The notes under the pieces were generated by a model that had not been told where the DNA came from, ran no database searches, and was given only the letters and a program-made list of their open reading frames with translations. This document shows, one piece after another, positions 27,954 to 45,700 of a stretch of DNA of 45,700 bases. The translations under genes were made by a program, and so were the position numbers. Origin of the DNA: an uncultured Clostridia bacterium (GTDB taxonomy: Bacteria; Bacillota; Clostridia; Christensenellales; UBA1242); NCBI GenBank assembly GCA_944349895.1, contig CALVNQ010000006.1:1-45700 (forward strand). The letters are read 5' to 3'. Each line of letters opens with the position of its first letter. Position 1 is the first letter of the stretch.

Positions 27954-29741
27954 ATGTCCGATAACAATTATTTATCAAAGTTAATATTAAATCATTTCAC
28001 ACGTAACACACCTTTGAATGCAAATTATTTAAAAAAAGCATGCGCAACCACTTTTTCCAATACTCAATATAATTTTAGTCCAATTGAAAAATATATAATG
28101 TCTCCATTTATTGCTTTTTCGTTTAAAATGAAAAAGGATAAAGACGAAAGTTATAGCCCCGTTATAGAAGAAAGGACTATTGACAAAGTTTCAAAAGACT
28201 TATACCAATTTCTGACAAAAGGTGTGTTGGGAGGTGTTGCATCAAAAAATTTTGAAAAATCAAAAGAATACTATAAAAAAGGCGAAAAAGAATACGGAGG
28301 CCCTTTTTCTCTCCTTGAAGGATCGGAGAAAAAAGGATTGAAGGAAAGACCTTTTGCAGCTTCAGGGAAAAAATATTTTGAAGTATTAAAAACCTTAAAT
28401 GAGTTTGATGTTTCAAAGGACTCGGGAAAAGATATTTATGATTTCAAATCTAAAATAAAAAAGAGATATTCTTTCGATAGCATTGAAAAAAGCAACGCAG
28501 TTATAAGCTCACTTGTTGACTATTTCGATAAAAGTTATGATAAATCAAAAGCAGATCCATCTTTGAAAAATTCTGTTGTTTTACTTGCGACACTTTTGTC
28601 TTTAAAAGAAATTGACATTGAAAAAAATGGTTCTGAAATGGAAGAGGCAATTAAAGAGGTGGTTCCACATTTATATGGTTCACTTTTAACCATACCTAAT
28701 AAGGAAGTTAGAAAGATTTCTGAGATAACGGATAAGGCAGTTGAATTAGCAGAGCAAAGAATTAAGTCACTAAATGAGAAATTGCCAGATGATAACAAAT
28801 ATGCTTGTCAGATTAAAAATTATTTCCATGACTTATCCATTTCAAATGAACTTGACGCTCAAATCGTTAAATTCAATGATTTGCATGTTTCTTTTAATGA
28901 CAAAGGGTCTAATTATAAATTTTCTTATGTTGATAATGAAGGGAAAGTGTGCTATATTGATGATGCCTCTAAAATATTTGTCAGTCAAGAAAAAAAATTA
29001 CATGAAGTTGTTCGGTCGCTTTACTTATTTGATAAATCTTATGCAAAATTAAAGGGCAAAAACATTGATACCTTTGGTGAGACAGCTGAAATTTTACTTT
29101 TAAACCTGCTGATTATTGATAATACCAAAAGTAAGATTGACGAATCGATAAAGAAAAAACTCCAGGAGATTTTTGCAGTTCCTTTGCTTAAATGTTATCA
29201 AAACATGGGAAAAGATGAAATTAAAACAGCCAATAAAAATGCAATTGAAGGTTTGAAAGAGATCGCAGAATTACGCAAAAGTTTAATAAATGAAGAAGAT
29301 GTAGATAAGCTAACATGTAATTATGGTAAGAAAGAAGTTTTGCTTGAAGACGAGATGAAAAGATTTATTAAATTTTTTATCGAAAAATGCGATATATATC
29401 TTCAATCTAAAGGTTTGCTAAATAAAGAAAGCGTAAGCGAAGAGGACGAAACTAGAAAGGCTTTAGGGCTTGTGGTGGGCCATTTGAATCTTAGTTTCCC
29501 TGATAATAATTATATTTATGGTAAAGATAAATCAAAAGACATATCGACAAAAGAGATACAAGATAATGAAATTGCTAAAGCTGCCTATACAAAATTGTTT
29601 GAAGTTGCTGATGCAACAAAAAAATATCTCGAAAAGAATGGTGGAAACGTTGATGAGAAGGAAATGAAAGATTTTAGGAAAGAAGTTGGGTTAACTAAAA
29701 AAAATGCGAAAAAAATAGTAGAAGGAATAGTAAAAAAATAG
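27954..29741 (+). CDS. Unknown 595-residue helical cytoplasmic protein
   Basis: I do not recognise a family. The protein is rich in Lys, Glu and Asp, looks almost wholly alpha-helical, and has no signal peptide or clear membrane segment. The N-terminus (MSDNNYLSKLILNHFTRNTP, then ANYLKKACATTF) is polar. The C-terminus is strongly basic (KKNAKKIVEGIVKK). No nucleotide-binding or metal motif stands out. There are repeated-looking helical segments around residues 130-270 and 360-460, but I could not align them convincingly. It has its own promoter, a good AAGGAGA ribosome site and a bidirectional terminator, so it is a single-gene unit. It could be a lineage-specific structural or phage-derived protein; the sequence does not decide. 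Confidence 0.8.
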   Translation: MSDNNYLSKLILNHFTRNTPLNANYLKKACATTFSNTQYNFSPIEKYIMSPFIAFSFKMKKDKDESYSPVIEERTIDKVSKDLYQFLTKGVLGGVASKNFEKSKEYYKKGEKEYGGPFSLLEGSEKKGLKERPFAASGKKYFEVLKTLNEFDVSKDSGKDIYDFKSKIKKRYSFDSIEKSNAVISSLVDYFDKSYDKSKADPSLKNSVVLLATLLSLKEIDIEKNGSEMEEAIKEVVPHLYGSLLTIPNKEVRKISEITDKAVELAEQRIKSLNEKLPDDNKYACQIKNYFHDLSISNELDAQIVKFNDLHVSFNDKGSNYKFSYVDNEGKVCYIDDASKIFVSQEKKLHEVVRSLYLFDKSYAKLKGKNIDTFGETAEILLLNLLIIDNTKSKIDESIKKKLQEIFAVPLLKCYQNMGKDEIKTANKNAIEGLKEIAELRKSLINEEDVDKLTCNYGKKEVLLEDEMKRFIKFFIEKCDIYLQSKGLLNKESVSEEDETRKALGLVVGHLNLSFPDNNYIYGKDKSKDISTKEIQDNEIAKAAYTKLFEVADATKKYLEKNGGNVDEKEMKDFRKEVGLTKKNAKKIVEGIVKK

Positions 29742-29752
29742 AGAAAAATAAT

Positions 29753-29775
29753 AAAAAAGCCGAAAGGCTTTTTTT
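29753..29775. terminator. Bidirectional terminator between the 27954 gene and fba
   Basis: AAAAAAGCC (29753-29761) and GGCTTTTTT (29766-29774) form a stem with a GAAA tetraloop, one of the most stable loop types. The fba stop codon abuts it on the other strand. Confidence 0.9.
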
Positions 29776-30695
29776 CATGCTTTATTTGAGGAATTTAATA
29801 GATTCTTCATTTTATTTTTTACTACATTTTTTACAGCAGTTTGAGCTTCTTTTATATAAACTCTAGGGTCAAAATTAGAAGGGTTGTTTTTTAATGATCT
29901 CATTATGGCTTCTGTGTATGCTATCCTTAAATCTGTGTCCATATTTATTTTTACTATATTATATTTTGTTACAGCTATTTTTATTAAATTTTCATCGACG
30001 CCAACGGCATTGTTAATTTTTCCACCTAATTTATTTATATTTTTGACCAGTTCTTGATTAACCGAAGAGGCGCCATGTAAAACTAAAGGGAAATCTTTTA
30101 ATTGTTTCTGAATGTTTGAAAGTATGTCGAATTTTAATTCACTTTTACCTTTGTATTTGTAGGCTCCGTGGCTTGTGCCGATTGCTATTGCTAAAGAGTC
30201 AACATTGGTTTTTTCTACAAAAATTTTGGCTTGTATTGGATCAGTGAAATGATTGTTTTCAACAGAAATTTCATCTTCTATTCCTTTTATTTGACCCAAT
30301 TCAGCTTCAACATAAACTTCTTTTTTGTGAGCATAATTAACCACTTTTTTTGTCACTTCTATGTTTTTATCAAAAGATAAGTCGCTTGCATCAATCATTA
30401 CAGAATCGAAACCTAAGTCTACTGCTTTTTTGCAAATTTCAAAGCTTTTGCCATGGTCTAAATGTAAAAAAATTGGCGCTTTATATTCTTTTTTTGCTTG
30501 ATTTACTATGGGAAAGATATATCCTTCACCCAAAAATTTTAAAGCGCCTTCACTAATTGCAACTATTACAGGGCTTTTTTCTTCTTCAGCTGCTGAACAT
30601 ATTGCTTTTAATGTTTCTAAGTTTGAAAAATTAAAAGCACCGAGAGCAAATCCTTTTTTAATCGCTTTTTTATAAAAATACATTAAATCTTTCAT
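29775..30695 (-). CDS. fba: Class II fructose-bisphosphate aldolase
   Basis: The enzyme splits fructose 1,6-bisphosphate into dihydroxyacetone phosphate and glyceraldehyde 3-phosphate using zinc. The 306-residue form starting MKDLMYFYKKAIKKG is preferred over a longer form that starts nine codons earlier, because the promoter -10 box lies between the two ATGs. Key residues are in place: D80 and zinc ligand H81 (LHLDHGKS), E132 (EAELGQIKG), H176 (GTSHGAYK), H207 (LHGASS), and the phosphate-binding tail motif NMDTDLR. The DTDLR form favours fructose- over tagatose-bisphosphate. It is a monocistronic minus-strand gene ending at a bidirectional terminator. No ribosome site precedes the chosen start. 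Confidence 0.93.
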   Translation of the reverse strand: MKDLMYFYKKAIKKGFALGAFNFSNLETLKAICSAAEEEKSPVIVAISEGALKFLGEGYIFPIVNQAKKEYKAPIFLHLDHGKSFEICKKAVDLGFDSVMIDASDLSFDKNIEVTKKVVNYAHKKEVYVEAELGQIKGIEDEISVENNHFTDPIQAKIFVEKTNVDSLAIAIGTSHGAYKYKGKSELKFDILSNIQKQLKDFPLVLHGASSVNQELVKNINKLGGKINNAVGVDENLIKIAVTKYNIVKINMDTDLRIAYTEAIMRSLKNNPSNFDPRVYIKEAQTAVKNVVKNKMKNLLNSSNKA

Positions 30696-30731
30696 GTGAC
30701 AAATTATATCACATTTTCGCATTTATCAAAA
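30694..30731 (-). promoter_or_regulatory. fba promoter with overlapping palindrome
   Basis: On the minus strand TTTTGA (30726-30731) and TATAAT (30703-30708) are 17 bases apart, with an extended TGA before the -10. The ATG follows seven bases later, so the mRNA should be leaderless. A palindrome ATGTGA-N9-TCACAT (30694-30714) spans the -10 and the start codon and could be an operator. Confidence 0.6.
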
Positions 30732-30757
30732 CATAAATTAAACAAAAGGAGATAATA

Positions 30758-31432
30758 ATGAAAAAAATTTTATTTTTAATAGTCATATGTATTATTCCAA
30801 TGTTAACTTTTTTTGGTTGTGGACAAGTTGATTGCATTTCTTTAATAGAAAAAAATATGTCTGAAAGAAGTGATGTTTATTTTTATTCAGATGGTGATGA
30901 TATGCAAATATCTATTTGTTCTGGCCAAAGGGAGGAGCCTTATGCGTATGATGGCGTAAGCAATCAAAAGCTGGATTTTGCTTTAATAACTGCTGAAATT
31001 AACAGCACCGAACCAGAGATTATCATGATAGAGATTGATGACCAAAATGAAGAGGTATTGTTAGAATATAATTATTTAACTGGTAAGCATATGGCAGATT
31101 TGGAGAGAAAACTGTCTGGAGAAGAATATATAAAAATTTTTTATTTAGATAAAGAAATTTCTATGGTTTGCAAATCAAATGATTTTCAAATTTCTTCTAA
31201 GGAGGCTATAAAATTAGGTTTTAATGCCCTTAACGCTATAATTGAACCACTGTGTGATGGTGATATTTTTAATGGAGAGTGCTATTTAAAAATATTAGAC
31301 AAACTTTCAGGTGATTTTAATGATATTTTCTGGTTATTTTCAGTTTTGGATAAAGACGGAAACATCAACAATGTGATTATTTCAACCAATGAACCATATG
31401 TGTTTGCAGATAATCAAAATAATATGATATAA
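30758..31432 (+). CDS. Small unknown lipoprotein
   Basis: A 224-residue protein with a clear lipoprotein signal: MKKILFLIVICIIPMLTF and then the lipobox FFGC with Cys21. The mature part is acidic and shows alternating strands and helices, with YFYSDGDDMQISICSGQREE near the start. Three or four further cysteines (in VDCISL, SICSG, MVCKS, LCDGD) could form disulfides. I do not recognise a family. AAAAGGAGA fixes the start. The hflX promoter lies within its last codons, and its own promoter is not clear in the gap shared with fba. Confidence 0.85.
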   Translation: MKKILFLIVICIIPMLTFFGCGQVDCISLIEKNMSERSDVYFYSDGDDMQISICSGQREEPYAYDGVSNQKLDFALITAEINSTEPEIIMIEIDDQNEEVLLEYNYLTGKHMADLERKLSGEEYIKIFYLDKEISMVCKSNDFQISSKEAIKLGFNALNAIIEPLCDGDIFNGECYLKILDKLSGDFNDIFWLFSVLDKDGNINNVIISTNEPYVFADNQNNMI

Positions 31433-31433
31433 T
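31404..31433 (+). promoter_or_regulatory. hflX promoter, predicts a leaderless mRNA
   Basis: TTGCAG (31404-31409) and TATAAT (31428-31433) are 18 bases apart. The -10 overlaps the stop codon of the preceding gene, and the hflX ATG begins six bases after it. Confidence 0.65.
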
Positions 31434-31439
31434 GAGCTT

Positions 31440-32540
31440 ATGCAGAAAACATTTTCAACAGCTGAAGAAAAGGAACGAGCTTTATTGGTTGTGGTTTTAA
31501 CCAAAAAAGGCGAAAGTAAAAATAGAAAATGCGATGAAATAACTCGTTTAGCTCTTTCTACCGATTTGGAAGTGGATAAAATTTTTTCACAAACTATAAA
31601 AGAATTTAATAAAGCCACAGTAATTGGAAGTGGAAAAGTTGAAGAAATTAAAGATTATTTACGCAATAATCCTGTTGACTTAATTGTAATAGATTATAAA
31701 TTGACTGGCTCTCAAATTAGAAATCTTTCTACTCTGTTTGGAGTCAGAGTTATAGATAGAGTAGGTTTAATATTAGACATTTTTGCAAAAAATGCAAAAA
31801 CTAATGAAGCTAAACTTCAAGTAAGGCTTGCTCAAAACATTTATAATTTGCCTAAACTTGCCGATTTGAAAGGTTCTAATGGGAGATTTGGTGGAGCAGG
31901 TGTGGGTATGAGAGGACCTGGTGAAAGCAAATTAGAATTAGACCGAAGAAAGTTGGAAAAAGAGATTGATAATTTAAAAAAAGATATACAAAAAATTAAA
32001 GAAAGAAGGGAAATTAACAGGAGAGAAAGAAACAAAAATCAAATTAAGAAAATAGCTTTGGTTGGTTATACTAATGCAGGGAAAAGCAGTTTGCTCAATA
32101 CTCTAACTAAGGAAAATGTTTATACCGAAGATAAGTATTTTGCCACTCTTGACACAACAAGCAGAAAAATTTTTCTTGGTGATCAAATAGCGTTGATTAC
32201 CGATACAGTAGGTTTTATTTCTGACTTGCCACATGAATTAGTTGATGCTTTTGCATCTACTTTGGAGGAGGCAAAAGATGCAGATTTAATTTTGCATATT
32301 GTTGATCCGACAGCGACTTCTTTGACAGATGATAAAGAACTTTATTATCTTGAATCGATGCGAATAACTAACGAGGTTTTGGATAAAATTGGGGCAACAA
32401 AAAATAGATTGGTTGTGTTTAATAAAGTTGATTTATTAGATCACAACTTTATAATTGGCGAAAATCAGATTGGTGTTTCTGCAAAGACAAAAGAAGGTAT
32501 TGATAAATTGAAAGAGGAAATAAAAAAGTTACTAAATTAA
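31440..32540 (+). CDS. hflX: Ribosome-associated GTPase HflX
   Basis: HflX is a GTPase that binds the large ribosomal subunit and splits stalled or inactive ribosomes, notably under heat stress. The 366-residue protein has the N-terminal HflX domain with the glycine-rich signature GRFGGAGVGMRGPGESKLE, then a coiled-coil linker of charged residues (KKDIQKIKERREINRRERNK), then the GTPase domain. GTPase motifs are G1 GYTNAGKSS at residues 209-217, G3 DTVGF at 255-259 and G4 NKVD at 328-331. All are intact. The ATG at 31440 has no ribosome site and sits where transcription should start. A terminator shared with the convergent DUF1858 gene follows. Confidence 0.96.
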   Translation: MQKTFSTAEEKERALLVVVLTKKGESKNRKCDEITRLALSTDLEVDKIFSQTIKEFNKATVIGSGKVEEIKDYLRNNPVDLIVIDYKLTGSQIRNLSTLFGVRVIDRVGLILDIFAKNAKTNEAKLQVRLAQNIYNLPKLADLKGSNGRFGGAGVGMRGPGESKLELDRRKLEKEIDNLKKDIQKIKERREINRRERNKNQIKKIALVGYTNAGKSSLLNTLTKENVYTEDKYFATLDTTSRKIFLGDQIALITDTVGFISDLPHELVDAFASTLEEAKDADLILHIVDPTATSLTDDKELYYLESMRITNEVLDKIGATKNRLVVFNKVDLLDHNFIIGENQIGVSAKTKEGIDKLKEEIKKLLN

Positions 32541-32576: not shown

Positions 32577-32608
32577 AAAAAAGTGGCAAGTTAATTGCCA
32601 CTTTTATT
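32577..32608. terminator. Bidirectional terminator after hflX and the DUF1858 gene
   Basis: AAAAGTGGCAA (32579-32589) and TTGCCACTTTT (32595-32605) form an 11-bp stem with loop GTTAA. The stop codon of the minus-strand gene (32591-32593) is in the loop. Confidence 0.9.
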
Positions 32609-32938: not shown

Positions 32939-33637
32939 ATGGAAAAATTGTCTGAACTGATTTCAAAAAAAGTTTTTGCACTTGATACTGGTGAATGCGT
33001 AGGCTATGTTATAAATGTTATGCTTGACAAAAATTTTTCGATTGTTGAAAAATTGTTAATTGTTGATGATGAAAGTGAATATGAGTGTGAAGCGTTAACC
33101 AAAAATGTAATTTTTAAAGGCGATGATGTCTTTATTAAATCCTCTAAATTTATTTCTTACGAACACGGGCTTCTTATGGATAGATTATTGGGCAAGTATG
33201 TTTTTACTCAAGAGGCTTCAAGCTGTGGTTTACTAAATGATATTTATTTAGATAATTTTTATATAATTTCTTTTGTAACCAACAAGTGCTCTTTTTCATA
33301 TAAACAAATTAGTTTAATTGGTAGAGATTGTATTATTATTGGGAAAAGAAAAAAGATAAAAAATAAGCAAAATTTTTTCGATGAAAAAAAATCAAATATT
33401 CCTTCTGCCCCTGACCAACTGGTTTCAATTTCTTCGGTTGGAGAAAAAGTTGGACAAGCTGTTCCTTATCGCGCTTCAAGTGATTTTAAATCTTTGATTG
33501 GCAAAATCGCAACTAAGGACATATTTGGATTTAATAATGAATTACTTGTTAAAAAATTTGAAGTTATAACTCAAAAAAAATTAAATGATGTAAAAAAACA
33601 CGGTAAATTATCTATACTATATTATAATTGTAAATAG
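32939..33637 (+). CDS. PRC-barrel-like protein
   Basis: The 232-residue protein starts MEKLSELISKKVFALDTGEC, then VGYVINVMLDKNFSIVEKLLI, the pattern of a PRC-barrel domain (compare YlmC/YmxH proteins). Two later segments repeat it weakly: residues about 80-135 (LLGKYVFTQEASSCGLLNDI) and about 180-215 (LIGKIATKDIFGFNNELLVK). A basic linker (GKRKKIKNKQ) separates them. There is no signal peptide or membrane segment. PRC-barrels bind RNA or proteins in many settings and the target cannot be read here. No canonical ribosome site is seen, only GTGG just before the ATG. It precedes the VirB4-like gene by 62 bases, with a separate promoter between. The assignment is by pattern, and the second and third repeats are uncertain. 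Confidence 0.65.
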   Translation: MEKLSELISKKVFALDTGECVGYVINVMLDKNFSIVEKLLIVDDESEYECEALTKNVIFKGDDVFIKSSKFISYEHGLLMDRLLGKYVFTQEASSCGLLNDIYLDNFYIISFVTNKCSFSYKQISLIGRDCIIIGKRKKIKNKQNFFDEKKSNIPSAPDQLVSISSVGEKVGQAVPYRASSDFKSLIGKIATKDIFGFNNELLVKKFEVITQKKLNDVKKHGKLSILYYNCK

Positions 33638-33699: not shown

Positions 33700-36426
33700 A
33701 TGCAACGTATTATTCCTAGGAGAACCAAAGTAAAACTTGAGTTCATGAGAGGGGTTACAAGTCTAGATTTAATTTTAGCTGTTATTGGGGTGGCTATAGC
33801 TGTTGTTTTATTTGCTTCAAATTTTGAAGGGCATTTTTGGATTGCTGCAGTTTTTACAATTTTATACGCTGCTATGTTTATTAAAATTGCAGATGAAGAA
33901 AGACTTTACGTTACTTGTGCCTATATTTTTAGGTTTATGGCCCAGAAGAAAAAATTTTCATCAGATGTAAGCAAGGGGAAGAAATCGGACATTAGTGAAA
34001 TGATTCCTTTTGAAAATGTTTATCAAGATAGATTTATTAATTTTGGTACATATTACGGGCAAGTTATTGAAATAAAACCTGTTTTATTTGGACTGCTAAC
34101 TGAATATACTCAAGACAATGTTATCGAAAGTTTTGCTAATGCTTTGCGAAGATTAACTCCTGAACAAACTTGTTCAATTATTAAGTTAAATTTAGCTATG
34201 ATTTTGGACAATTATATTTATAACGAAAATAAAAAATATGAATTGCTACTTGAAATGCAATATGAGGGGCAGGTATCAGAACAAGAGGTTGATACAAGAA
34301 GCCCGATCTTTGAAGAACGTGTCTCTTTTATGGAAAACTTAAACAGAAAAAATAAGGTTTATAAGGACCATTTTTATGTTATCGTTTATGATAAAGATTT
34401 GGATTTGCTCGAAAATACAGTAAACGGTATGATTAATTCTTTGGCTTCCTCATTGGCTCCTATGAGTGCAAAAAGGCTTTATGGTTCTGAGTTAACGATT
34501 TTTCTTAAAGCTAATTATGGAAGAGAATTCGATCAAAGAGAGTTAGAAAGTATACCTCTTGCTCAACATGTGGAATGGGCGAAACCTAAAAAGATAAGGT
34601 TTAAAGCTGCAAGATATTTCATTGACAACAATGCTTTCAGAACTTTTACAATTACAGACTATCCTTTAAATGTGGGGAATGCATGGGGCTCGGATATATT
34701 CCTTTTAGACAGGACTAAAGTTATTATGAAATTTAATCAAGTCCCAAAATATAATGCAGAACGTTCAATAGATAAAGCCATAATGGATATGGAAAGCAAA
34801 CTTTATCGTACAGGCCGTTCTTCGAGTCAAATTGAACTTCAAACCCATGTTGAGACTTTAAGAGATTTGCTCATTAATTTAAAAAATAATAACCAACAAC
34901 TTTATGATGTTAATACTTTTATAACTTGTGAAGATGCAGCTAAAAGAGATGTTAAAGCTATGCTTAAACAAAGTGGTTTTAAATTTAGTGAAATGTTTGC
35001 ACGTCAGCAAGATGCTTTTATCAGTTCAAGTATTTCAAGAAGGGATAGCATTAAAAATTCTCGTCGTGGTATACCAACATCAACTTTGGCAGCAGTTTTT
35101 CCATTTATTTCAAGTGCTTTGCAAGACGAAACGGGTATTTATATAGGAGACAATGAATATCCTGTCTTTGTTGATTTTTTTACAAGAGATACCACTCGTG
35201 TCAATTCTAATATGATGGTTATAGGTAAATCAGGATCGGGAAAAAGTTATGCTACAAAAACTTTGCTTGCTAACCTCGCAGCCGATAACTGTAAGATTTT
35301 TATTTTAGACCCTGAAAAAGAATATGCCAAACTGTCAGAATCGTTGGGAGGAAAGTACATTGATGTTGGTTCATCGCTTCATGGTATTATTAATCCCTTC
35401 CATATTATTTCATCTCTTGATGAAAGCGATGATGAAACGTCAGATGATGATGACGAAAATGATGAAAATTTTGATTCATTTAAGAAACCAAAGAAAACCA
35501 GGGAAATCCCAAAAGTTAATGATTCTTATTCTCAACATTTGCAATTTTTAGAGCAATTCTTTAGGAGCATATTAGAAGGAATAAATTCAGATGCTTTCGA
35601 GTTGTTAAATTCACTTATCGTTGATGTTTATAAAAAGAAAGGTATTGATGAAAATACTTATGTAAATGGTTTAAAACCAGAAGATTATCCAATTTTTGAT
35701 GATTTGTATGATTTAATTTTACAAAGAATTAAAACTTGTAAAGATGAATTTACAATGCGTAATTTGATGACTATAGAAACTTATATTAAAAAGTTCGCTT
35801 CAGGTGGTAGAAATAGTAAGCTTTGGAATGGCCCTACTTCTATTGAGACTAACGAAAATTTTGTGTGTTTCAACTTTCAATCTTTGATTGCAAACAATAA
35901 CTCTTTGTTGACAAACGCACAAATGCTTTTGGTTTTTAGATATCTTAATAATGAAATTATTAATAATAAAGATTTTAATGCTAAGTATCATAAAGGAGAT
36001 AAGAAGAATAATCGTAAAATTATTATTGCCGTTGATGAAGCCCATGTCTTTATTAACCCTAAATATCCTATTGCTCTCGATTTTATGGCACAAATGGCAA
36101 AACGTATACGTAAATATTGGGGGATGCAAATAGTTATTACTCAGAATATTGCCGACTTTGTAGGAAGTGAAGAAATTCAAAGACAATCAACAGCAGTTAT
36201 CAATGCTTGTCAGTATTCGCTTATTTTTTCGTTGGCTCCTAATGATATTAATGACTTGGTCGAGCTCTATAAAAAATCTGGGGGAATTAATGAAGAAGAA
36301 CAAAATGCTATTGTTACAGCTGGGCTCGGACAAGCATTTCTGATAACCGGACCGACAAACAGAACTATGATACAGATTGTTGCTCAAGAGTATATTCAAT
36401 CTATTTTCTCGAATGCAAACGAATAA
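33700..36426 (+). CDS. VirB4-family secretion ATPase with PrgI-like N-terminus
   Basis: VirB4 ATPases power type IV secretion and conjugation. The 908-residue protein begins with a PrgI-like part: residues about 20-65 form two membrane helices (LDLILAVIGVAIAVVLFA and FWIAAVFTILYAAMFIKI). A VirB4/CagE-type N-terminal domain follows, then the RecA-like motor with Walker A GKSGSGKS at residues 509-516, Walker B IIIAVDEAH with D779 and E780, and the downstream motif ITQNIADF. An Asp/Glu-rich insert near residues 574-590 (DESDDETSDDDDENDEN) looks unusual for the family. PrgI fused to VirB4 resembles Gram-positive conjugation systems, yet no relaxase, VirD4 or other type IV gene is near. The next gene, a giant lipoprotein, starts 14 bases later. 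ATG is preceded by AAGGAGA at a slightly long distance. Confidence 0.93.
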   Translation: MQRIIPRRTKVKLEFMRGVTSLDLILAVIGVAIAVVLFASNFEGHFWIAAVFTILYAAMFIKIADEERLYVTCAYIFRFMAQKKKFSSDVSKGKKSDISEMIPFENVYQDRFINFGTYYGQVIEIKPVLFGLLTEYTQDNVIESFANALRRLTPEQTCSIIKLNLAMILDNYIYNENKKYELLLEMQYEGQVSEQEVDTRSPIFEERVSFMENLNRKNKVYKDHFYVIVYDKDLDLLENTVNGMINSLASSLAPMSAKRLYGSELTIFLKANYGREFDQRELESIPLAQHVEWAKPKKIRFKAARYFIDNNAFRTFTITDYPLNVGNAWGSDIFLLDRTKVIMKFNQVPKYNAERSIDKAIMDMESKLYRTGRSSSQIELQTHVETLRDLLINLKNNNQQLYDVNTFITCEDAAKRDVKAMLKQSGFKFSEMFARQQDAFISSSISRRDSIKNSRRGIPTSTLAAVFPFISSALQDETGIYIGDNEYPVFVDFFTRDTTRVNSNMMVIGKSGSGKSYATKTLLANLAADNCKIFILDPEKEYAKLSESLGGKYIDVGSSLHGIINPFHIISSLDESDDETSDDDDENDENFDSFKKPKKTREIPKVNDSYSQHLQFLEQFFRSILEGINSDAFELLNSLIVDVYKKKGIDENTYVNGLKPEDYPIFDDLYDLILQRIKTCKDEFTMRNLMTIETYIKKFASGGRNSKLWNGPTSIETNENFVCFNFQSLIANNNSLLTNAQMLLVFRYLNNEIINNKDFNAKYHKGDKKNNRKIIIAVDEAHVFINPKYPIALDFMAQMAKRIRKYWGMQIVITQNIADFVGSEEIQRQSTAVINACQYSLIFSLAPNDINDLVELYKKSGGINEEEQNAIVTAGLGQAFLITGPTNRTMIQIVAQEYIQSIFSNANE

Positions 36427-36440
36427 ATAAAAGGGAGATA

Positions 36441-39400
36441 ATGCAAAAGGTTAAGTTTAACTTAAAAAAACTTGTCGCAGTGTTAAGCCTAGGAGTGATT
36501 TTCTTGCTCTCAGGCCTCTTTTTTGTCGGTTGTGGAGAAAACGTTGCTTCTAAACTTACTCTTAATGCAGACAAATCCTCTATAACCATTTTTGCAAACG
36601 AAAGTGAAAACATAACCTTTACCGTTGGGAATGTTTCTGATGGAGTTGATTCAAGCTTAAGTTTTTCACTTGTTGACAGTACTGTTTCTTCTACTCAAAG
36701 TGAGCATGTTAGTTTAGAAGTTTTAAGTGTCCAAAATAACAAAACCGTTGTTCAGGTAACCGGCATAAGTGGAGGGGAAACCTCTTTAATTGCCAGGACT
36801 GTTGAAGGTGATAAACAATTTGTTGTTGAAATCAATGTGCGCCAATATTCATCTAGTGTTAATTTTAAAGATGATGTTTTGCTTTATGTTTCCAATAATA
36901 CTAATTTTATCCCAAATGAAAGTTTTTTTAATTTTGATGGAACAGCTACCGAGCGCAAATTAAGTTTTTATAGAACCGAAATTCCTGATGAAGCAAGCAT
37001 TAACAACGAATTCGTAAGCGTTAGATTGCAAGAAGATGACTTGGAAGGAAATACTTTAATTTATACAAGATCAGATGGATCAACTTTTGAAGAAAACTTT
37101 GTACAAGACGGTCAGGAGATTAATTTTGTTACAATTTATAACAATTTTCAAACTGATAAAATTATTTCAGTTCTAAACCATTTTAATGTTTTGGTAGGAT
37201 TTGAAAATGATAAACAGATTAAAATATTAGAAAATGGAGAGCCTTTAAATGAAATAGTTTTGGTGGCAAATGATACTGGAGATTGGAGAATATCAAATTT
37301 TGAAGTTATTGTGCCTTACAGTGATTTTATAAAATTTGAACATGTCGAAAGTGAATTAAATTTGCTTTCCATTGAAAAAGAGTTGGTTAATATTGATCAA
37401 GTTAATGGGACAGCTACATATAATTTTTCTGTCGCAAGCACTACAATGGTCTCTTCTTCAACAGAACTAGCTTTCTATTTGTATTATCAAATAGGGGATA
37501 TAAGTTATAAAAATTCTCAAGATTTTTCGATATCTCAAAAAGTGCAGATACCTGTTCAAATTAAGGTTTCGCCTAATTCGATAACTATTAACAGTGTGGA
37601 AGAATCTTCAGTTGATAATCATTATAAATTTTATAACAATTATGATGGAGATTATGGTTGGAAAGAATTCAAAATTGACGTTTATGCTAACGACAGCAGT
37701 TTTGACTATATTTTAATGACATTCGATAATGATTTGGTTGTTAGATATAAAAAAGAAATTGTTTCTTCTCCTTTTAAGATTTATGACTTGACAGCTCCTG
37801 TGTATATTAGAGGAGCATCTACTGCTGTTGTAACATCATTAGAAAAACAGTTCACTTTTGATGTTGTAAGCGATTACTTAAGACCTGATGAAACAGTGAG
37901 TTATGTTTGTAATTATTCTATCTTGACTGGTGCGACTTTGCTTAGCTTTGATGACGTAAGCTATGAATATAATCCTTTGCAGGAGAACACCGGCATTTAT
38001 ATTTCATTGTCAAGCGGGGCTGTCCAATTTGACCATTTAATTGTTGATTATGCTTTTGAAAATGCTTCTCTAGTTTTTCAAGATGGGGATTCGTCTGTTG
38101 CGCGAGTGTCTTTCTCTGGCATTATTGATGAAGATGAAAATTTAGTTTCGTTATCAATAATTCCTCAAAAGGTCGGTTTAGTTACTTATAAGTTGGTGCT
38201 CGATAACGGGGTTAGTAAACTGTTAACTTTTAGGGTAGTGGAAACTTTTGATAATTTAAGTATTGATATCTCGGGAACAGGCAATGATGGAGTTCAAAGT
38301 TCAGAGAAAATTGAAAATGTTGAAGACCCAAATATCGGAACAATCGAGGAGCAAATTAATATTGTAATCCAAAATAATTCTACCGAAGACGTAGTAATGT
38401 ATGGCAAAAAGGCATCAGTGGAATTAAGCTCTTTCGCGGGTGTATCCATTTTCTCCGATATTAGCTATTCTTTCAGCCAACAAGGTATTGTTCAAATAAC
38501 GGAAAACGGCGTTGGGAAATTTGTTTTTTCTACTAATAATTATGGCGATGTTAATGTAGATTTTGTTGTTACCGGAATCTTTGTTGAAGATTTTAAAATA
38601 ACTCAAATCGAAAGAATTGCAAGAGCATATATTGTAAGTTTTAATCCTGTTTCCAAGTTAAATGTATATCAAAATATAGATGGCAAACAGGTATCTGCCA
38701 ACAACGTTTCTTTATATGTTGGAGATCTTGTAAGTGATTCTTCTCTTCAAGTTTCAACATTCTATGCTTCCATAAATCCTTCTTCTTCTTTTGGATTTTA
38801 TGATCCTTTGGATGATAAAATGGAGAATGCACTTTTTGATGATCAGTATATTTATTGGACAATTTCAGGAACTAATATTTATTTGCAAGATAATATCGCT
38901 GACAGAATGATTTATGGTAAAGTTTATAAAATAGGAAATTCTTCTGTTGATTTCTTTGGAACTTTTGACACAACAACTATGACTTTTACGGTAAATAGAA
39001 ATAGAAATGAAGCTTTTAGTTTCACCATGCTTGCCTCGGTTAGACAATATGGGGTTTCAAAGTATTTTCCTGTCAATATCGAGGGTAAACTTTATAGTAA
39101 TGTTGAGCAAATCTATACAAATTTAGATCAAAGTAATCAAATTGTTTTTACTCCTTCAAAAACAAGTTTTAAGATTGGTGTTTATTTGAACCCTTCTACT
39201 GCTACCGATACTGATATTGTTTTTGATTTTGTTTCTCAAAACACAAATGATTCCGATCCAATTTTGATAAATAAAAAAGAGATATCTAAAACTTATGTTA
39301 ATAAAGGTATATATATTGTTACAGTTAATTTAAATAGTCAAGTTGCTAATGTAATAAAAAATGGAACTTTGCAAGGTGTTTTGCAAATAATACCTAATGC

Positions 39401-42400
39401 TTGGTATGTTGATGGTAGAATCGCTTCCGGATATGAAAATGCAATTTTGAAAGTTAATTGCAGTTATGCTGATGGAACTGAACAAAATAGATTTATAATT
39501 CAAACGGCAGAAGATCTTATCGCTATTGGTAATAGTTCTCAGGCGATGAGTTCTCATTATAAGATCGCTACTTCCGTCGACATCTCGGCTTTTGTTTCAA
39601 AATTGCCATTAGGAGCAGGATTAGATTTTTCAGGATCAATTGTTGGAGAGAACGACGCTGAAATTACTGGTGTTATTGTTTCCAAAGGTTATAGTAAAAA
39701 CTATGGACTGTTTTCTACCATTTCAGGTTATATTGAAAATGTTTCTTTTAGTGGTTATTTTGATGTAGATGATAATCAAAGCGATTTAAATGTTGGGCTT
39801 CTTGCTGGTTTATTAACGGGGAGATTAGAAAATATTGATGTTTATATTTCGTCTAGTTCTGTAGATATTGGAAGTGGAAATATTGGTGGTTTAGTTGGTA
39901 ATAACTCCGGGTTGATTTATGAAATGTCAGTTATTTTCGAAGATTATCTCAACTTAATTGTTGTAAAAGAGAGTTATCTTGGAGGATTGACAGGAATATC
40001 TTCAGGGGATATTATTGGCAGAAGTGACATATCTGACCGTTTTGGTTATTCGGCTTATTCTGTTTACGCATTATTGAATTGTGCTAATGACAATGGTTTT
40101 TACGATGTTAATGCTGGCGCAGTAGCCGGACAAGTTGAAGATTCATTAGTTTATAATATTTTAGCTGGTGGGGAAATTTTTGCTGAAAATGCTGCTGGTT
40201 TAGTTTGTACTATTATTGCTAATTCTGATCAGGGCGCCGGATTATATGATTGCACTTCAAGAACTTCGGTAAGAGGAAATAATATAGCGCTTTTGACTTT
40301 AAATATTGTCGGTAATGTTTTATTGCAAAACCCTGATAATATTTCGTCAAGCAAATCTTTTATTGTTCAAGCTACTGATGATGGTTTAAAAACCGGCGTT
40401 TATGCTTCAATTGGTATCCTGTTTATTTCGGGGAGCTCAGCTACTTCTCCTATTACAACTGCAAATTATTTAAATTATATAGCTTTTGGTCAAAACAATG
40501 TCAATGCTATTAATTATGTAGATTTTTCTTCTTATGTTGACAGAACTTATATTGATTCTAATAACATTATTGATAATGTTTTTACTAAAGATGAATATTA
40601 TGGTGATTATATTGTCGTTAATTTAACAACTCGTAAAGTCATTGATAGTTATAATTTCGATAAAAGAAATACAACATTTGCGATTTCTGCAAATGAAGAA
40701 TACGGCTTTAGACAGCTTAATTCAGATTCTGAAAACAACCCTAAAGTTATTTTTGCTTATTATTTTGAACCTTCGGGTTATTATCAAAATGGAGAATTTG
40801 TTACAAGTAATTTAGGGCAAGCACAAGAACTTTTGGATAAACTTAATAGAGTAGGAATGTACAGCAATCTTTATCCGTTGAAAATTGATGGAGCTGACAT
40901 CACCATTACTTCGGACGACCCAATTTTGGAAATTTCTGCATCAGGAGAAATTTATATTAAAGGTGTCGGCAATGCCGAATTGCAAATTAAGAGTATTTTA
41001 AATCAAAAACAAACTGAAAAAGTTTATTTATATATTGTAAATTATTTCGACATTGGTTCTTATATTGATGGCACTGAAACCGGAATTTTTACTCTTGGTG
41101 GTATGACTTTAGGAGAAGGTACAAAATTTAAAGTCTATTCTAATTCGGGAGTTGATATTTTGATTTCGCCATCTTATGCTTATGGCGACCCAGAAATCGA
41201 TCAAGTTTATGTTCAAAGAGACGGTTTTGTTTATTTAGATGGCAAATCTATTAAGTTAAAAAATAATTATTCTGTTTCTGCAAATGTTTCGGGAGAACTT
41301 TTAAGTGGAGATTATGTTCCTTCTCGTGATGGAATAACTTTTGTTAAAAAATACGGCATCATTACTGAAAGCACTGATACAATTGATTTGATAGCAGTTA
41401 TGAATTGTGAGATTTCTGATATTAATTATACTTTAGAAATTACTAGGTTAGAAGATGTTGTTATTGAATATAGAGAAGGGGCTTCAAACATAATTACAGG
41501 TTGGGATAATTATGTTATTTCCTCTTCAATTCCTGTTGTTGACAGTTATAAAATTATTACAGATGATGAAACAGACGGATTGTTATGTGAAATCGTTGAC
41601 GAAGGTGGAGATCCAGTCGATTTATTCGATATCGATATTGATATCAACAAGGGACTTATTTCAATTTCAGTAGATAAAAGCTCGGCTGAATTTCAAAATA
41701 GATTTAATGAAAATATTTATAAAACTTACTACTTAAATTTGAGCGCAAAATCTAATCAGAGTAATATTTTAAAAATTATTGAGATTAGTTTGATTAAAGA
41801 AAATGTTGATGTTATTTCTGTTACAAATTATCCAAATAAAGAAGACCTGGAAAGTGGAGAATCGCAGATGGTGATTCCTGGTAAAGATGGTTTGCTTTCT
41901 ATAACCCTTTCTCCTATTGATGCAGATTTTGATTATGTTGAAATTAAAAATGCTGATATAAACTATCTAGATGGCTCGAGTCAAGCTTCTTTCGTTATAG
42001 GGTATCTTGCTATAAATGATGAGGAGAATTTTAGAAGAGAGTTTGTGCCTATAACTGGAGCAGAATTAACAGAAAATGGCATAAAAATTTCTAAGAGCAT
42101 TTTAGAACAAAACTTACTAAATTATCAAGGTCAATTTTATGTTAAGTATCTATTTTCTAACATTGACGTTGTTGACAAAACACCTGTTGGAATTGAAGTG
42201 ATTGTCACTCAAGATGGTGGGCAATTTGAAAAAATTCTTAATTACAATATCTATAAAGATGATTCGGTTTATATTGGTTTAGCAGGATATTCTGATACGA
42301 AAGATCAAGTTGCTCGTGGTTTAGAATATGAACTTAACATAAAAGCTGTTGGTTATGAACAAGATTTAATTAGTGTGACTTCTTCAAATCCTCAATTAGC

Positions 42401-45400
42401 ACAAATTATTGAACGCGATGGTAAGTATTATCTAAATGTTACAAACGAGGTTATTGATTATAATTCAGGTAATTCTAAATTTAGCATTATTCTCGAAGCT
42501 TCAAAAGTTAATGAGTTTGGCGAGCTTATATCTATATCAGTTTCAAAAGAATTAGAAATTTTAGAATATGTTATTAATTACGAATATTCTGTGGGAAATA
42601 ATTTGGATATAATCGGGGGAATGAATGATGGAGTTATAAATGCTGCTATTGGAGACAGAATTAATCTTTCCATTAATTTGGAAGAGTTTTTAGAATATAA
42701 CAAAGAAAATACTTCAGTGGTTGCATTAATAAATGGATTCATATCTTCTTTAACGTCTGATGGTAAATGGATTTTATATACAGACTTAAATTCTAATACT
42801 CCAGAAGGGGTTCCTATTCATCCTGTGCCTTTGAAAGAAGATAAGGCTACATCTTCAGAAATAAATGCTCTATCAAATATTTCGACTCCTTATTTAAGCT
42901 TGTCTGGTTTATCATTTGTCGCTTACATTGCTCACCAACCTGAAAGTAAACATTATTTTATCACTTATGAAAACTCTTTTATAATTTCGAATGGTAGATA
43001 TGAAGTAAGCAACAATCCTGAAGGCGCTAAACAAATTTATACTGAATTAACAGTTTACGCTTATTTAAGAGGCTCTGAAGCAAGCCCTAATCCTGTTTTT
43101 ACTTATCAAGAATTTCTTGATATGGACGAAAATGGTTTTTATATTTTGATGAATGATATTATAGTTCCTTCAGATGAATTTGTTCCTCTTAATACAAAAA
43201 TAAACTATTTTGACGGCAATAATTATAAATTTATCTTTACTGATGAAGTTTATAATGTGGGAGAATTATCTTCGGTAGGTCTTTTTGGAACTGTTGACAG
43301 TAATACAATTATTAAAAACCTTTCTATTCAATTTGGATCAGAAAATGTTAAAGCTGTTTCATTCAATTCATCTTCAAAAACCGCTGTTGTTTTTGGTTCA
43401 GTGGCGGGGACTAATAATGGTTCAATAACAAATGCAAAAGTTTCCACATATGAGGGTTCGAGTGTACATTTGACTTTTGTTAATACCCCTGCTTCACAAG
43501 GATATTATTTTGGTGGAATTGTTGGACAGAATTCAGGTTATATAACTAATTCAAAAGTTTCAGCTAATTTGCAAAGTTTGGTAAGCATGGGTGGTATAGC
43601 AGGTGTTAACCAAAATATTATTTCTTCGAGTGTTTTTGCTCAAGGAAATTTAATTTGTACTTCAATTTATAACGATGTCTATAAGGTGGGGGGGATTGTT
43701 GCAGAAAATTCGGAAAATGGAATTATTTCAACAAGTTATTCTTCCGGAATTGTTTCTTCTAGCAAGCCTTATTCAGATAGTGAAAATAGCAAGATAAATT
43801 CAAGTGTGCAGGTTGGTGGTTTCGTTCATTCCAATAATGGAACTATCTATGATTGTTATTCAAATATTCCTATAACAACGACATCTAGAAGTGCTGGATT
43901 TGTATTTACTAATAATGGTAATATTGTCAGATGTTTTTCGACAAGTAAGATTTACGGGGATAATAGTGCGACCAACTTCTATTTCGCAGGTGAAGGTGAT
44001 GGAACTTTTTCAGATTGTTATTATATAAAAGGGGATAAGATCAATGTAACTCTCACACCTTTAGTTCATGAAGGAGTGAACGCTTTGATTTATAATGAAT
44101 TAAATAATGTCAAAAATGATTTTGAGAATTTAGCACAATATTTTTCTAATTATGCTTATTCGGCTACACCATCTTATAATTCGGTTTGGTTCTATAGTGA
44201 TGGAAGCACGAGCGATAGCTTTAACTATGCGCAGTTTGCTGGTGGAAGGCTTGAACTAGTTGCACCAAATATAAATGCTATAAGCCAAAAGGAAAATGTT
44301 GGAACAACTGTTGATTCCTACGGAGTTGTTACTTATCAATATGCAACTGTTGAAGGGACTCCAGAAGACGGTAGCGTTTTTAATCCTTATGTTATTTATT
44401 CACCAGAGACTTTGGAAAATTATTGTTCTTCACCAAATAATATTGTTAGCGGTTATTTCCGTTTAATCAATGATATTGATTACTCAACAGTTGCATCGGA
44501 TTTTTCTAAAACGTATAGGGTGGAGTTTAAGGGTAATTTTGAAGGCAATAACATGACTATCAAAGGTATACAACTTGTTTCTAATGAAATTGTTGAATCG
44601 GCAGGACTTTTTGGTAAAATCAATGGAGCTTCTAATAATTATTCCTCGGTTATGAATTTAAAAATTATCCCAAAAGAAGTTAATTTCTCCAATGCTAAAA
44701 TCGTTGGTACTTTAGCCGGAACTATACAAAATGCTAATATATATAATATCAAATTATATGGTTCTACTTCAGGTGTTGATACAAGTGAAACCGATTCTAT
44801 TGTTACTGTTACGGGTAATAATATTGTCGGAGGCTTGATTGGTTTGGCTGATGGAGATTATTCTATAAAAAATATAAACTCTTTTATTGGCGCTTTTGCT
44901 ACAAAAGTTTCGTCAGGTGAGGTCGAGATTGATTATGAATCTGACAATCTTAATGATTTGTCATATGCGGGAGGTGTTGTTGGCTATTTAGCCGGTAGAG
45001 GTAAAATTGAAAATATTACAATGTCTTTGGGCGCTGTTAATGTTTTAGGCGCAAAAGTAGGATTTATTTTCGGAGGTATTGCTAACGGTACCACTGCACA
45101 AAATATTTATCTCTCATTAAATCCTTCCATGGTTTTAAAGCCTTACCGTTATGGTGGTATTATTGCCGGAGATGTCAAAGGCAAACTATATAATGCTTAT
45201 GTTTATGGTTATGAATCAAGTGGAGAAATTTTTACATTGAATCCTTTTGTTGCAGAGGCTGTTGGAGGTATAGCAGGTATCGTAAGAAATGGAGCTGAAC
45301 TTAATGGGCTGTATATGAGCCAGAGCTTCTTTGTTGCCAATGCGCCAACGGCATCGGTTGAAATTAACACCATTAATTATATTGGTGGAATTGTCGGAGT

Positions 45401-45700
45401 TGTTCAAGGCCCTAATAATAGCATTTCTAATGTCGTTGTGGACGCAGATATATCGGCAAAAGGGGCGCTAGGTGGTGTTGTTGGTTATGTAGATCGTTCA
45501 ACAGGGCTGACGATTTCCCAAAGTGCTGTCAAAGATGCTATACTGAAAATTGATGGACAAAATGCTTCTCCATCAATCGGTGGGATTATCGGTGTTATTG
45601 ATCAAGATTCAATTGTTTCGATTGACGATTCTTACAGTTGGGCCAATATCGAAATTGAAACTTACAGTTATTCCACATTAATTAATGCAAATTATGGTGG
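36441..45700 (+). CDS. Second giant GLUG-type surface lipoprotein (partial)
   Basis: The ATG follows AAAGGGAG and the frame stays open to the window edge, giving at least 3086 residues. I checked the frame at several points, including the last codons. Residues 1-31 are a lipoprotein signal ending in the lipobox FVGC (Cys31). Residues about 32-1010 are beta-rich and Ig-like (LTLNADKSSITIFANESENI). GLUG modules start near residues 1016 (FIIQTAEDLIAIGN), 2223 (YQEFLDMDENGFYILMNDI) and 2647 (YSPETLENYC, then YFRLINDIDY), with many GGIVG or GGLVG turns between. Architecture matches the first giant gene, so they are probably paralogs or one family. It sits 14 bases after the VirB4-like gene in an apparent operon. 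Adhesive or matrix function is inferred; the C-terminus is unseen. Confidence 0.9.
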   Translation, partial: MQKVKFNLKKLVAVLSLGVIFLLSGLFFVGCGENVASKLTLNADKSSITIFANESENITFTVGNVSDGVDSSLSFSLVDSTVSSTQSEHVSLEVLSVQNNKTVVQVTGISGGETSLIARTVEGDKQFVVEINVRQYSSSVNFKDDVLLYVSNNTNFIPNESFFNFDGTATERKLSFYRTEIPDEASINNEFVSVRLQEDDLEGNTLIYTRSDGSTFEENFVQDGQEINFVTIYNNFQTDKIISVLNHFNVLVGFENDKQIKILENGEPLNEIVLVANDTGDWRISNFEVIVPYSDFIKFEHVESELNLLSIEKELVNIDQVNGTATYNFSVASTTMVSSSTELAFYLYYQIGDISYKNSQDFSISQKVQIPVQIKVSPNSITINSVEESSVDNHYKFYNNYDGDYGWKEFKIDVYANDSSFDYILMTFDNDLVVRYKKEIVSSPFKIYDLTAPVYIRGASTAVVTSLEKQFTFDVVSDYLRPDETVSYVCNYSILTGATLLSFDDVSYEYNPLQENTGIYISLSSGAVQFDHLIVDYAFENASLVFQDGDSSVARVSFSGIIDEDENLVSLSIIPQKVGLVTYKLVLDNGVSKLLTFRVVETFDNLSIDISGTGNDGVQSSEKIENVEDPNIGTIEEQINIVIQNNSTEDVVMYGKKASVELSSFAGVSIFSDISYSFSQQGIVQITENGVGKFVFSTNNYGDVNVDFVVTGIFVEDFKITQIERIARAYIVSFNPVSKLNVYQNIDGKQVSANNVSLYVGDLVSDSSLQVSTFYASINPSSSFGFYDPLDDKMENALFDDQYIYWTISGTNIYLQDNIADRMIYGKVYKIGNSSVDFFGTFDTTTMTFTVNRNRNEAFSFTMLASVRQYGVSKYFPVNIEGKLYSNVEQIYTNLDQSNQIVFTPSKTSFKIGVYLNPSTATDTDIVFDFVSQNTNDSDPILINKKEISKTYVNKGIYIVTVNLNSQVANVIKNGTLQGVLQIIPNAWYVDGRIASGYENAILKVNCSYADGTEQNRFIIQTAEDLIAIGNSSQAMSSHYKIATSVDISAFVSKLPLGAGLDFSGSIVGENDAEITGVIVSKGYSKNYGLFSTISGYIENVSFSGYFDVDDNQSDLNVGLLAGLLTGRLENIDVYISSSSVDIGSGNIGGLVGNNSGLIYEMSVIFEDYLNLIVVKESYLGGLTGISSGDIIGRSDISDRFGYSAYSVYALLNCANDNGFYDVNAGAVAGQVEDSLVYNILAGGEIFAENAAGLVCTIIANSDQGAGLYDCTSRTSVRGNNIALLTLNIVGNVLLQNPDNISSSKSFIVQATDDGLKTGVYASIGILFISGSSATSPITTANYLNYIAFGQNNVNAINYVDFSSYVDRTYIDSNNIIDNVFTKDEYYGDYIVVNLTTRKVIDSYNFDKRNTTFAISANEEYGFRQLNSDSENNPKVIFAYYFEPSGYYQNGEFVTSNLGQAQELLDKLNRVGMYSNLYPLKIDGADITITSDDPILEISASGEIYIKGVGNAELQIKSILNQKQTEKVYLYIVNYFDIGSYIDGTETGIFTLGGMTLGEGTKFKVYSNSGVDILISPSYAYGDPEIDQVYVQRDGFVYLDGKSIKLKNNYSVSANVSGELLSGDYVPSRDGITFVKKYGIITESTDTIDLIAVMNCEISDINYTLEITRLEDVVIEYREGASNIITGWDNYVISSSIPVVDSYKIITDDETDGLLCEIVDEGGDPVDLFDIDIDINKGLISISVDKSSAEFQNRFNENIYKTYYLNLSAKSNQSNILKIIEISLIKENVDVISVTNYPNKEDLESGESQMVIPGKDGLLSITLSPIDADFDYVEIKNADINYLDGSSQASFVIGYLAINDEENFRREFVPITGAELTENGIKISKSILEQNLLNYQGQFYVKYLFSNIDVVDKTPVGIEVIVTQDGGQFEKILNYNIYKDDSVYIGLAGYSDTKDQVARGLEYELNIKAVGYEQDLISVTSSNPQLAQIIERDGKYYLNVTNEVIDYNSGNSKFSIILEASKVNEFGELISISVSKELEILEYVINYEYSVGNNLDIIGGMNDGVINAAIGDRINLSINLEEFLEYNKENTSVVALINGFISSLTSDGKWILYTDLNSNTPEGVPIHPVPLKEDKATSSEINALSNISTPYLSLSGLSFVAYIAHQPESKHYFITYENSFIISNGRYEVSNNPEGAKQIYTELTVYAYLRGSEASPNPVFTYQEFLDMDENGFYILMNDIIVPSDEFVPLNTKINYFDGNNYKFIFTDEVYNVGELSSVGLFGTVDSNTIIKNLSIQFGSENVKAVSFNSSSKTAVVFGSVAGTNNGSITNAKVSTYEGSSVHLTFVNTPASQGYYFGGIVGQNSGYITNSKVSANLQSLVSMGGIAGVNQNIISSSVFAQGNLICTSIYNDVYKVGGIVAENSENGIISTSYSSGIVSSSKPYSDSENSKINSSVQVGGFVHSNNGTIYDCYSNIPITTTSRSAGFVFTNNGNIVRCFSTSKIYGDNSATNFYFAGEGDGTFSDCYYIKGDKINVTLTPLVHEGVNALIYNELNNVKNDFENLAQYFSNYAYSATPSYNSVWFYSDGSTSDSFNYAQFAGGRLELVAPNINAISQKENVGTTVDSYGVVTYQYATVEGTPEDGSVFNPYVIYSPETLENYCSSPNNIVSGYFRLINDIDYSTVASDFSKTYRVEFKGNFEGNNMTIKGIQLVSNEIVESAGLFGKINGASNNYSSVMNLKIIPKEVNFSNAKIVGTLAGTIQNANIYNIKLYGSTSGVDTSETDSIVTVTGNNIVGGLIGLADGDYSIKNINSFIGAFATKVSSGEVEIDYESDNLNDLSYAGGVVGYLAGRGKIENITMSLGAVNVLGAKVGFIFGGIANGTTAQNIYLSLNPSMVLKPYRYGGIIAGDVKGKLYNAYVYGYESSGEIFTLNPFVAEAVGGIAGIVRNGAELNGLYMSQSFFVANAPTASVEINTINYIGGIVGVVQGPNNSISNVVVDADISAKGALGGVVGYVDRSTGLTISQSAVKDAILKIDGQNASPSIGGIIGVIDQDSIVSIDDSYSWANIEIETYSYSTLINANYG

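Follow-up and report, generated by a model that had tools for sequence, protein, structure and literature searches.

A VirB4 ATPase gene paired with a giant lipoprotein gene, and a candidate family-wide type IV secretion system, in genome-reduced gut Clostridia

What is the role of a VirB4-type ATPase whose gene directly precedes that of a giant surface lipoprotein, with no other conjugation gene in the vicinity? The question is raised by a 45,700-bp stretch of DNA from an uncultured Clostridia bacterium (the window). It makes up the whole of contig C6 in an assembly of 834 kb and 23 contigs with a completeness rating of 100%. Of the proteins discussed here, VirB4 and VirD4 act as ATPases, VirB6 is a membrane channel part, and members of the PF18895 family are pilin-like. 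A preliminary description of the locus reported a VirB4-type gene 14 nt upstream of the lipoprotein gene, no terminator between the two, and a neighbourhood free of genes for a relaxase, VirD4, VirB6 or a pilin. These statements stand: none of the four kinds of gene was found within the 45,700-bp window. The 14-nt gap (ataaaagggagata) contains a Shine-Dalgarno sequence and no terminator-like site, the sole one in the scanned stretch lying on the far side of the unit (Table 1).

Table 1. Features of the window and type IV secretion genes on other contigs of the same genome
Feature	Position	Strand	Basis and remarks
Second giant lipoprotein, 6,141 aa	422..18847	+	TTG start, AGGAGG upstream, lipobox FSAC
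Block: 595-aa protein - fba(-) - lipoprotein - hflX	27954..32540	.	Gene order, 5' of virB4
hflX, conserved chromosomal neighbour	31440..32540	+	Pfam; gene order in relatives
Terminator-like hairpin, 3' of hflX and 5' of PRC-VirB4-giant unit	32579..32605	+	Terminator scan
PRC-barrel protein, immediately 5' of virB4	32939..33637	+	Pfam; conserved neighbour within genus
VirB4 ATPase, 908 aa, N-terminal hydrophobic (probable VirB3/PrgI-like) segment	33700..36426	+	ORF, profiles, alignment, structure; family-wide
VirB4 membrane segment, residues 15-65	33742..33894	+	Hydropathy; predicted helices 21-39 and 45-58; probable fused VirB3/PrgI part
Walker A GKSGSGKS, residues 509-516	35224..35247	+	Kept in alignment of 11 relatives
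Walker B region IIIAVDEAH, residues 774-782	36019..36045	+	D779, E780, A781, H782 invariant in alignment
Shine-Dalgarno AAGGGAG in the 14-nt gap, virB4 to giant gene	36431..36437	+	Sequence
Giant lipoprotein gene, 3' end cut by contig end	36441..45700	+	3,086 aa visible
Lipobox cysteine C31 (FFVGC|G; N-terminus LSGLFFVGC|G)	36531..36533	+	Sequence; lipobox in most relatives
GLUG-like repeat region, predicted beta-solenoid then Ig-like strands	43101..44930	+	Structure model, pLDDT 88.9, pTM 0.91
VirD4	contig C12, L003 4424-6427		PF02534, E=4e-41; NF045973 above cut-off
T4SS pilin	contig C12, L003 19385-19747		PF18895 and NF045849, both above cut-offs
Three tandem VirB6-like proteins, 848, 736 and 802 aa	contig C9, L107 8034-15279		NF045848 above cut-off, all three

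The ATPase is an intact VirB4 protein in the general sense, as indicated by a match to the Pfam P-loop_TraG profile (67.8 bits against a cut-off of 25.8) and by its AlphaFold model, which is of moderate confidence and resembles VirB4/TrwK structures (4ag6, E=1e-19), namely Thermoanaerobacter VirB4 and R388 TrwK/VirB4. Against NCBIfam NF045975, the Mbov_0397 VirB4 of mycoplasma ICEs, it scores 564.5 bits over 892 residues (E=3e-169), which falls below the cut-off of 590; on these scores it is best placed as a close sister of the Mbov_0397 family, not a strict member. The ATPase had been credited with a PrgI-like membrane part of its own. The hydrophobic stretch is present at its N-terminus, but no PrgI domain reaches the Pfam threshold; the hydrophobic hairpin would fit a fused VirB3/PrgI head.

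The same description treated the ATPase as an orphan that could act with few partners, and here the rest of the genome tells against it. VirD4, a T4SS pilin and a triplet of VirB6-like proteins are encoded on two other contigs (Table 1), and the genome thus holds VirB4, VirB6 and VirD4 together, the minimal set for a Gram-positive T4SS, with VirB6 and VirD4 recognised by NCBIfam cut-offs and VirB4 by those of Pfam. Pilin, VirB6 and VirB4 correspond by family to Mbov_0395, Mbov_0396 and Mbov_0397 of mycoplasma ICEs, respectively. VirB6 found no counterpart in a search of the PDB. The VirB6 triplet is immediately followed by the gene for a 2,078-aa GLUG surface protein (L107 1623-7859); it was considered as a second T4SS-linked giant and dropped, being absent from this position in the sister species inspected.

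The same components recur throughout the genus, where VirD4 is present in 40 of 41 genomes and VirB6 and the pilin in 38 of 41 each. One genus member (G036) has VirD4 and VirB6 and no close VirB4 (best identity 28%), reflecting an assembly gap or a real loss. At the level of the family, whose genomes measure 0.5-2 Mb, VirB4 was found in 138/147 genomes and 42/42 genera, VirB6 in 77/78 and 42/42, VirD4 in 75/78 and 42/42, and the pilin in 72/78 and 41/42. We infer that the sampled family is GTDB UBA1242, because Christensenella sp. UBA1242 and UBA5489 appear as record names among the relatives, the latter being classed as a genus of that family in a published list.

A patchy distribution, of the kind expected of a mobile gene, is not seen for VirB4 in these family genomes, and within the genus the gene is fixed beside rpoBC. 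Its p-distances track those of RpoB (means 0.29 and 0.25, Pearson r 0.95, 36 pairs) and its dN is 0.07, with dS near saturation. Sequence comparison thus indicates strong, RpoB-like constraint on VirB4. The idea that the gene is a decaying relic was ruled out by this constraint together with the conserved motifs.

The pairing with a giant gene is not confined to this genome. Among 79 named VirB4 loci of uncultured gut Clostridia, 61 have a large surface-protein ORF directly 3' of the gene, and the adjacency exceeds chance. The first downstream ATG occurs 8-541 nt past VirB4, with a median of 58 nt, across the 74 loci that have a downstream ORF, giant or not, some of the starts being uncertain. 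A PRC-barrel gene lies 5' of VirB4 in almost all cases, and in 12 genomes with long contigs the giant gene is followed by rpoB and then, where the stretch reaches, by rpoC; the order PRC-VirB4-giant-rpoB is fixed as a whole in the genomes inspected. The 18 loci with no giant beside VirB4 carry VirB4 proteins that are mostly 60-64% identical to the one described here. Since the giant is missing beside VirB4 in related genera, it cannot be a general requirement of the machine. Several related-genus loci have the order VirB4, a gene of about 600 aa, fba, lipoprotein and hflX, the same order as the block upstream of virB4 in the window, the likeness of the ~600-aa gene to the window's 595-aa gene being one of order and size. 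The window's fba encodes a class II fructose-bisphosphate aldolase (29775-30722; PF01116, E=9e-95), an enzyme that UBA1242 genomes are stated to lack (PMC12306168).

Gene order in more distant relatives suggests how this arrangement may have come about. Where VirB4 is less than 60% identical to the present one, VirB6 is found no more than 10 kb away from it in 42/45 genomes; where the identity exceeds 60%, this holds for 0/16. These counts come from a chosen subset with rounded coordinates and from related genomes that are not independent. Several distant genera have an intact cluster in which VirD4 is divergent from pilin(s)-VirB6-VirB4, and some distant clusters encode a lipoprotein between the pilin and VirB6. 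The simplest history would be that one ancestral cluster was broken up in the ancestor of the window's subclade, and that in this genus VirB4 then came to precede the giant lipoprotein gene and rpoBC.

VirB6 itself varies in number and in size. It is triplicated in this species and its close relatives (L107, L109, L110, L111 and L116) and single in other genus members (L112, L114 and L122), and the two forms adjoin different genes, ksgA/tatD and uvrC respectively (named by eye). Giant VirB6-like proteins occur in other genera, at L204 5177-13540 (2,787 aa), L205 5984-18304 (4,106 aa), L206 1505-9304 and 12119-18259, and in L212. Those of L204 and L205 have about 930-1,430 aa between two membrane clusters, in addition to long C-termini.

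The giant lipoprotein, truncated here, measures 3,382-3,872 aa in intact relatives from the 12 genomes with long contigs. The Sec-type lipobox ascribed to it is present. No Pfam domain, including the polymer adhesin domain, was matched in the protein, and no LPxTG anchor occurs in the displayed C-terminal ends of the intact relatives. Its repeat region found no PDB match by Foldseek at E<=0.001; the best local likenesses, which fall below significance, are to beta-solenoid enzymes, tailspikes and a bacterial IgA1 protease. The protein diverges rapidly, with a mean p-distance of 0.68 against the VirB4 and RpoB values given above, and in comparison with one genus member (G025) VirB4 is 90% identical and the giant 52%. 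Fast divergence at a near-fixed length would suit an adhesin facing a variable partner, and the giant is a genus-specific addition, probably with this role. The window encodes a second giant lipoprotein, which is homologous to the first (25.6% identity over 853 aa, E=5e-25) and adjoins no T4SS gene there; together the two giants occupy about 61% of the contig.

Profile searches for the MobL and PF03432 relaxase families found neither in this genome, and hence none linked to the T4SS as in an ICE. Within the genus MobL is present in 9 of 41 genomes, and PF03432 exceeds its cut-off in 2 of 41. Three genus members (G002, G029 and G035) hold additional, ICE-type copies of a T4SS (L047, L048 and L052). 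The only one inspected in full, L047, has the order MobL relaxase, VirD4, a 1,481-aa surface protein, pilin, a 177-aa protein, VirB6 and VirB4. Its surface protein (L047 3222-7667) is Ig-like, with a C-terminal membrane anchor, and lies between VirD4 and the pilin; mobile versions of the T4SS thus also bring a large surface protein. In a tree the ICE-type VirB4s form a clade apart from the core copies. That VirB4 might sit within a full conjugative element with a relaxase in related genomes, as the preliminary description had allowed, is not borne out for this gene: membership of an ICE was ruled out, since in relatives the gene adjoins rpoBC or other core genes and the ICE copies are a separate clade. 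As judged from sequence, the virB4-giant pair is real, operon-like, conserved and outside any conjugative element. Two genus members, G020 and G064, for which the core T4SS is the only one, carry a MobL relaxase and an integrase-like gene with no T4SS genes nearby (L216, G020:C1:1-13000; L217, G064:C8:6000-22000); these elements could use the core T4SS.

We lean towards the reading that the core T4SS is a domesticated, usually relaxase-free machine for contact with partner cells, derived from a conjugative module of the Mbov_0395-0397 type. VirB4 would serve as the ATPase for assembly and secretion in a complete, minimal and vertically inherited T4SS composed of VirB3-like/VirB4, VirB6, VirD4 and pilin, whose ancestral module would have become fixed across a family of genome-reduced gut Clostridia, usually without a relaxase. 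VirB4 and VirD4 may drive the passage of a substrate through VirB6 and a surface structure built of pilin, either into a partner cell or out of one, and the cargo might be protein, DNA or metabolites, passing in either direction. Movement of cargo across a cell contact is suggested because no MobL or PF03432 relaxase was found and because the metabolism is probably partner-dependent: UBA1242-type bacteria inhabit animal guts, those of chicken and rabbit included, are unable to synthesise most building blocks, nucleotides among them, lack standard transporters, and are thought to depend on partner cells, with feeding by contact suspected and no machine named (PMC12306168). The giant lipoprotein of this genus, presumably cotranscribed with virB4, might be a lipid-anchored beta-solenoid/Ig adhesin that grips the partner, a part of the proposal that is weaker; its route to the cell surface would be Sec with signal peptidase II and would bypass the T4SS. 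A tentative extension, which we hold at somewhat less than even confidence, is that gut Clostridia of this family independently turned a conjugation machine into an obligatory organelle for partner contact, the partner-gripping parts being an Anaplasma-like giant VirB6 in some genera and the putatively VirB4-cotranscribed giant lipoprotein in this one.

A different reading is that the core T4SS is a standing conjugation machine, still moving DNA (IMEs with a relaxase, or chromosome pieces) and kept since gene exchange helps small genomes. Mycoplasma ICEs mediate chromosomal transfer between cells, the components here derive from a conjugative module, VirD4 is retained almost everywhere, and the MobL elements of G020 and G064, which have no second T4SS, leave room for DNA transfer by the core machine and so count against a role in partner contact. 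We nevertheless regard it as unlikely, since this genome and most others in the genus lack both relaxases, and since near-universal retention with RpoB-like constraint suggests a need of the cell over occasional use by elements. The conserved VirD4, a coupling protein typical of export systems, likewise speaks against a machine that takes DNA or nutrients from neighbours in the manner of H. pylori ComB or archaeal Ced. The missing nucleotide synthesis and standard transporters of UBA1242 (PMC12306168) would fit such import, but Saccharibacteria remain viable after loss of comEC whereas their T4SS is essential (PMC12857230), and we consider import improbable, more so than conjugation. For the contact reading itself, an unfavourable point is that a distant VirD4-like gene of the Saccharibacterium ML1 is not essential (PMC12102498).

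The giant gene calls for a separate judgement. The preliminary description had proposed that a simplified motor helps in the export, display or assembly of the giant protein. The short gap with its Shine-Dalgarno sequence and no terminator-like site, and an adjacency kept through the genus, are what such a link would produce; yet genera with no neighbouring giant keep VirB4, distant genera have VirB6 beside it instead, the giant bears its own Sec/lipobox signal, and its homologue in the window has no adjacent T4SS gene. We therefore regard this role as very improbable. Much harder to set aside is the view that position is all there is, the adjacency having arisen once and persisted by stable gene order, with the giant an unrelated surface protein; this we judge nearly as credible as not. 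It would account for the block that is fixed from the PRC gene to rpoB, for the abundance of giants on this contig and for the inconstancy of the GLUG protein beside VirB6. Against it, VirB6 moved within the genus and the virB4-giant pair did not, the giant stays at 3.4-3.9 kaa despite fast sequence drift, and some T4SS clusters of other genera hold a lipoprotein between pilin and VirB6. The case for a possible functional tie of the giant to VirB4 is one of gene order, for which local stability of the arrangement could also account.

No report of a T4SS in UBA1242 was found in the open-access literature, the scope of the search, and for Christensenellales the search yielded one incidental paper. 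Feeding of UBA1242 through cell contacts has been suspected, and a pilin-bearing T4SS present across the family offers a concrete candidate for it; the idea of partner contact is open to microscopy and metatranscriptomics.

Among known systems, the Mbov_0395-0396-0397 module of mycoplasma ICEs (ICEA/ICEB type) shares a homologous pilin-like protein, a VirB6-like membrane protein and a VirB4 ATPase with the present one. No VirB1 or VirB8 is reported from mycoplasma ICEs (PMC12857230). Unlike in those elements, the genes here are scattered or at a fixed chromosomal locus, no MobL or PF03432 relaxase accompanies them, and VirB6 is multiplied and enlarged. In these last respects the system recalls the rvh T4SS of Rickettsiales, likewise found in small genomes with scattered loci and tandem VirB6 genes (three here, five in Rickettsia), and the giant VirB6 proteins of the family's other genera (2,787 and 4,106 aa) recall those of Anaplasma (4,322-9,935 aa) (PMC2653234, PMC7648143). 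Scattered loci with multiplied and extended VirB6 are a resemblance in how the systems may work: the organisms are unrelated, the set found here is much smaller, and the extra VirB6 length lies partly between membrane clusters, not only at the C-terminus. The giant VirB6 would be convergent with Anaplasma VirB6-4, common descent not being claimed. PrgB/aggregation substance offers a parallel for the giant lipoprotein: it too is large, located at the surface and encoded alongside a T4SS, and it is proposed to hold cells together. PrgB has an LPxTG anchor and a polymer adhesin domain, whereas the present giant is lipid-anchored through its lipobox and has a predicted GLUG beta-solenoid and Ig-like strands, with no polymer adhesin match.

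The nearest functional parallel, with no common origin claimed, appears to be the FATA-derived T4SS of Patescibacteria/Saccharimonadia. In both cases the cells are genome-reduced and probably partner-dependent, VirB4 is chromosomal, vertically kept and near core genes, with VirD4 often far from it, the relaxase is mostly absent, and VirB2-like PF18895 pilins are present, often several; a chromosomal, family-wide, relaxase-poor T4SS with pilins is what was found here. There are differences: Patescibacteria belong to another phylum than Clostridia, no VirB3-VirB4 fusion was found in them (PMC12102498) whereas the present VirB4 appears to carry a VirB3-like head, VirB6 is universal here and scarce or absent in some of their classes, and the giant surface lipoprotein beside VirB4 is a feature of the present system. 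One Saccharibacterial species depends on a relaxase-poor, pilin-bearing T4SS to grow on its host (PMC12102498, PMC12857230). A 2025 review singles out Patescibacteria among bacteria with Gram-positive T4SSs, both as the only ones to have VirB2 pilins and as the first whose survival requires the T4SS (PMC12857230). If the partner-contact reading is right, UBA1242 would be the second such case of Gram-positive type after Patescibacteria, and conjugation machines would repeatedly have been put to use for a life on other cells.
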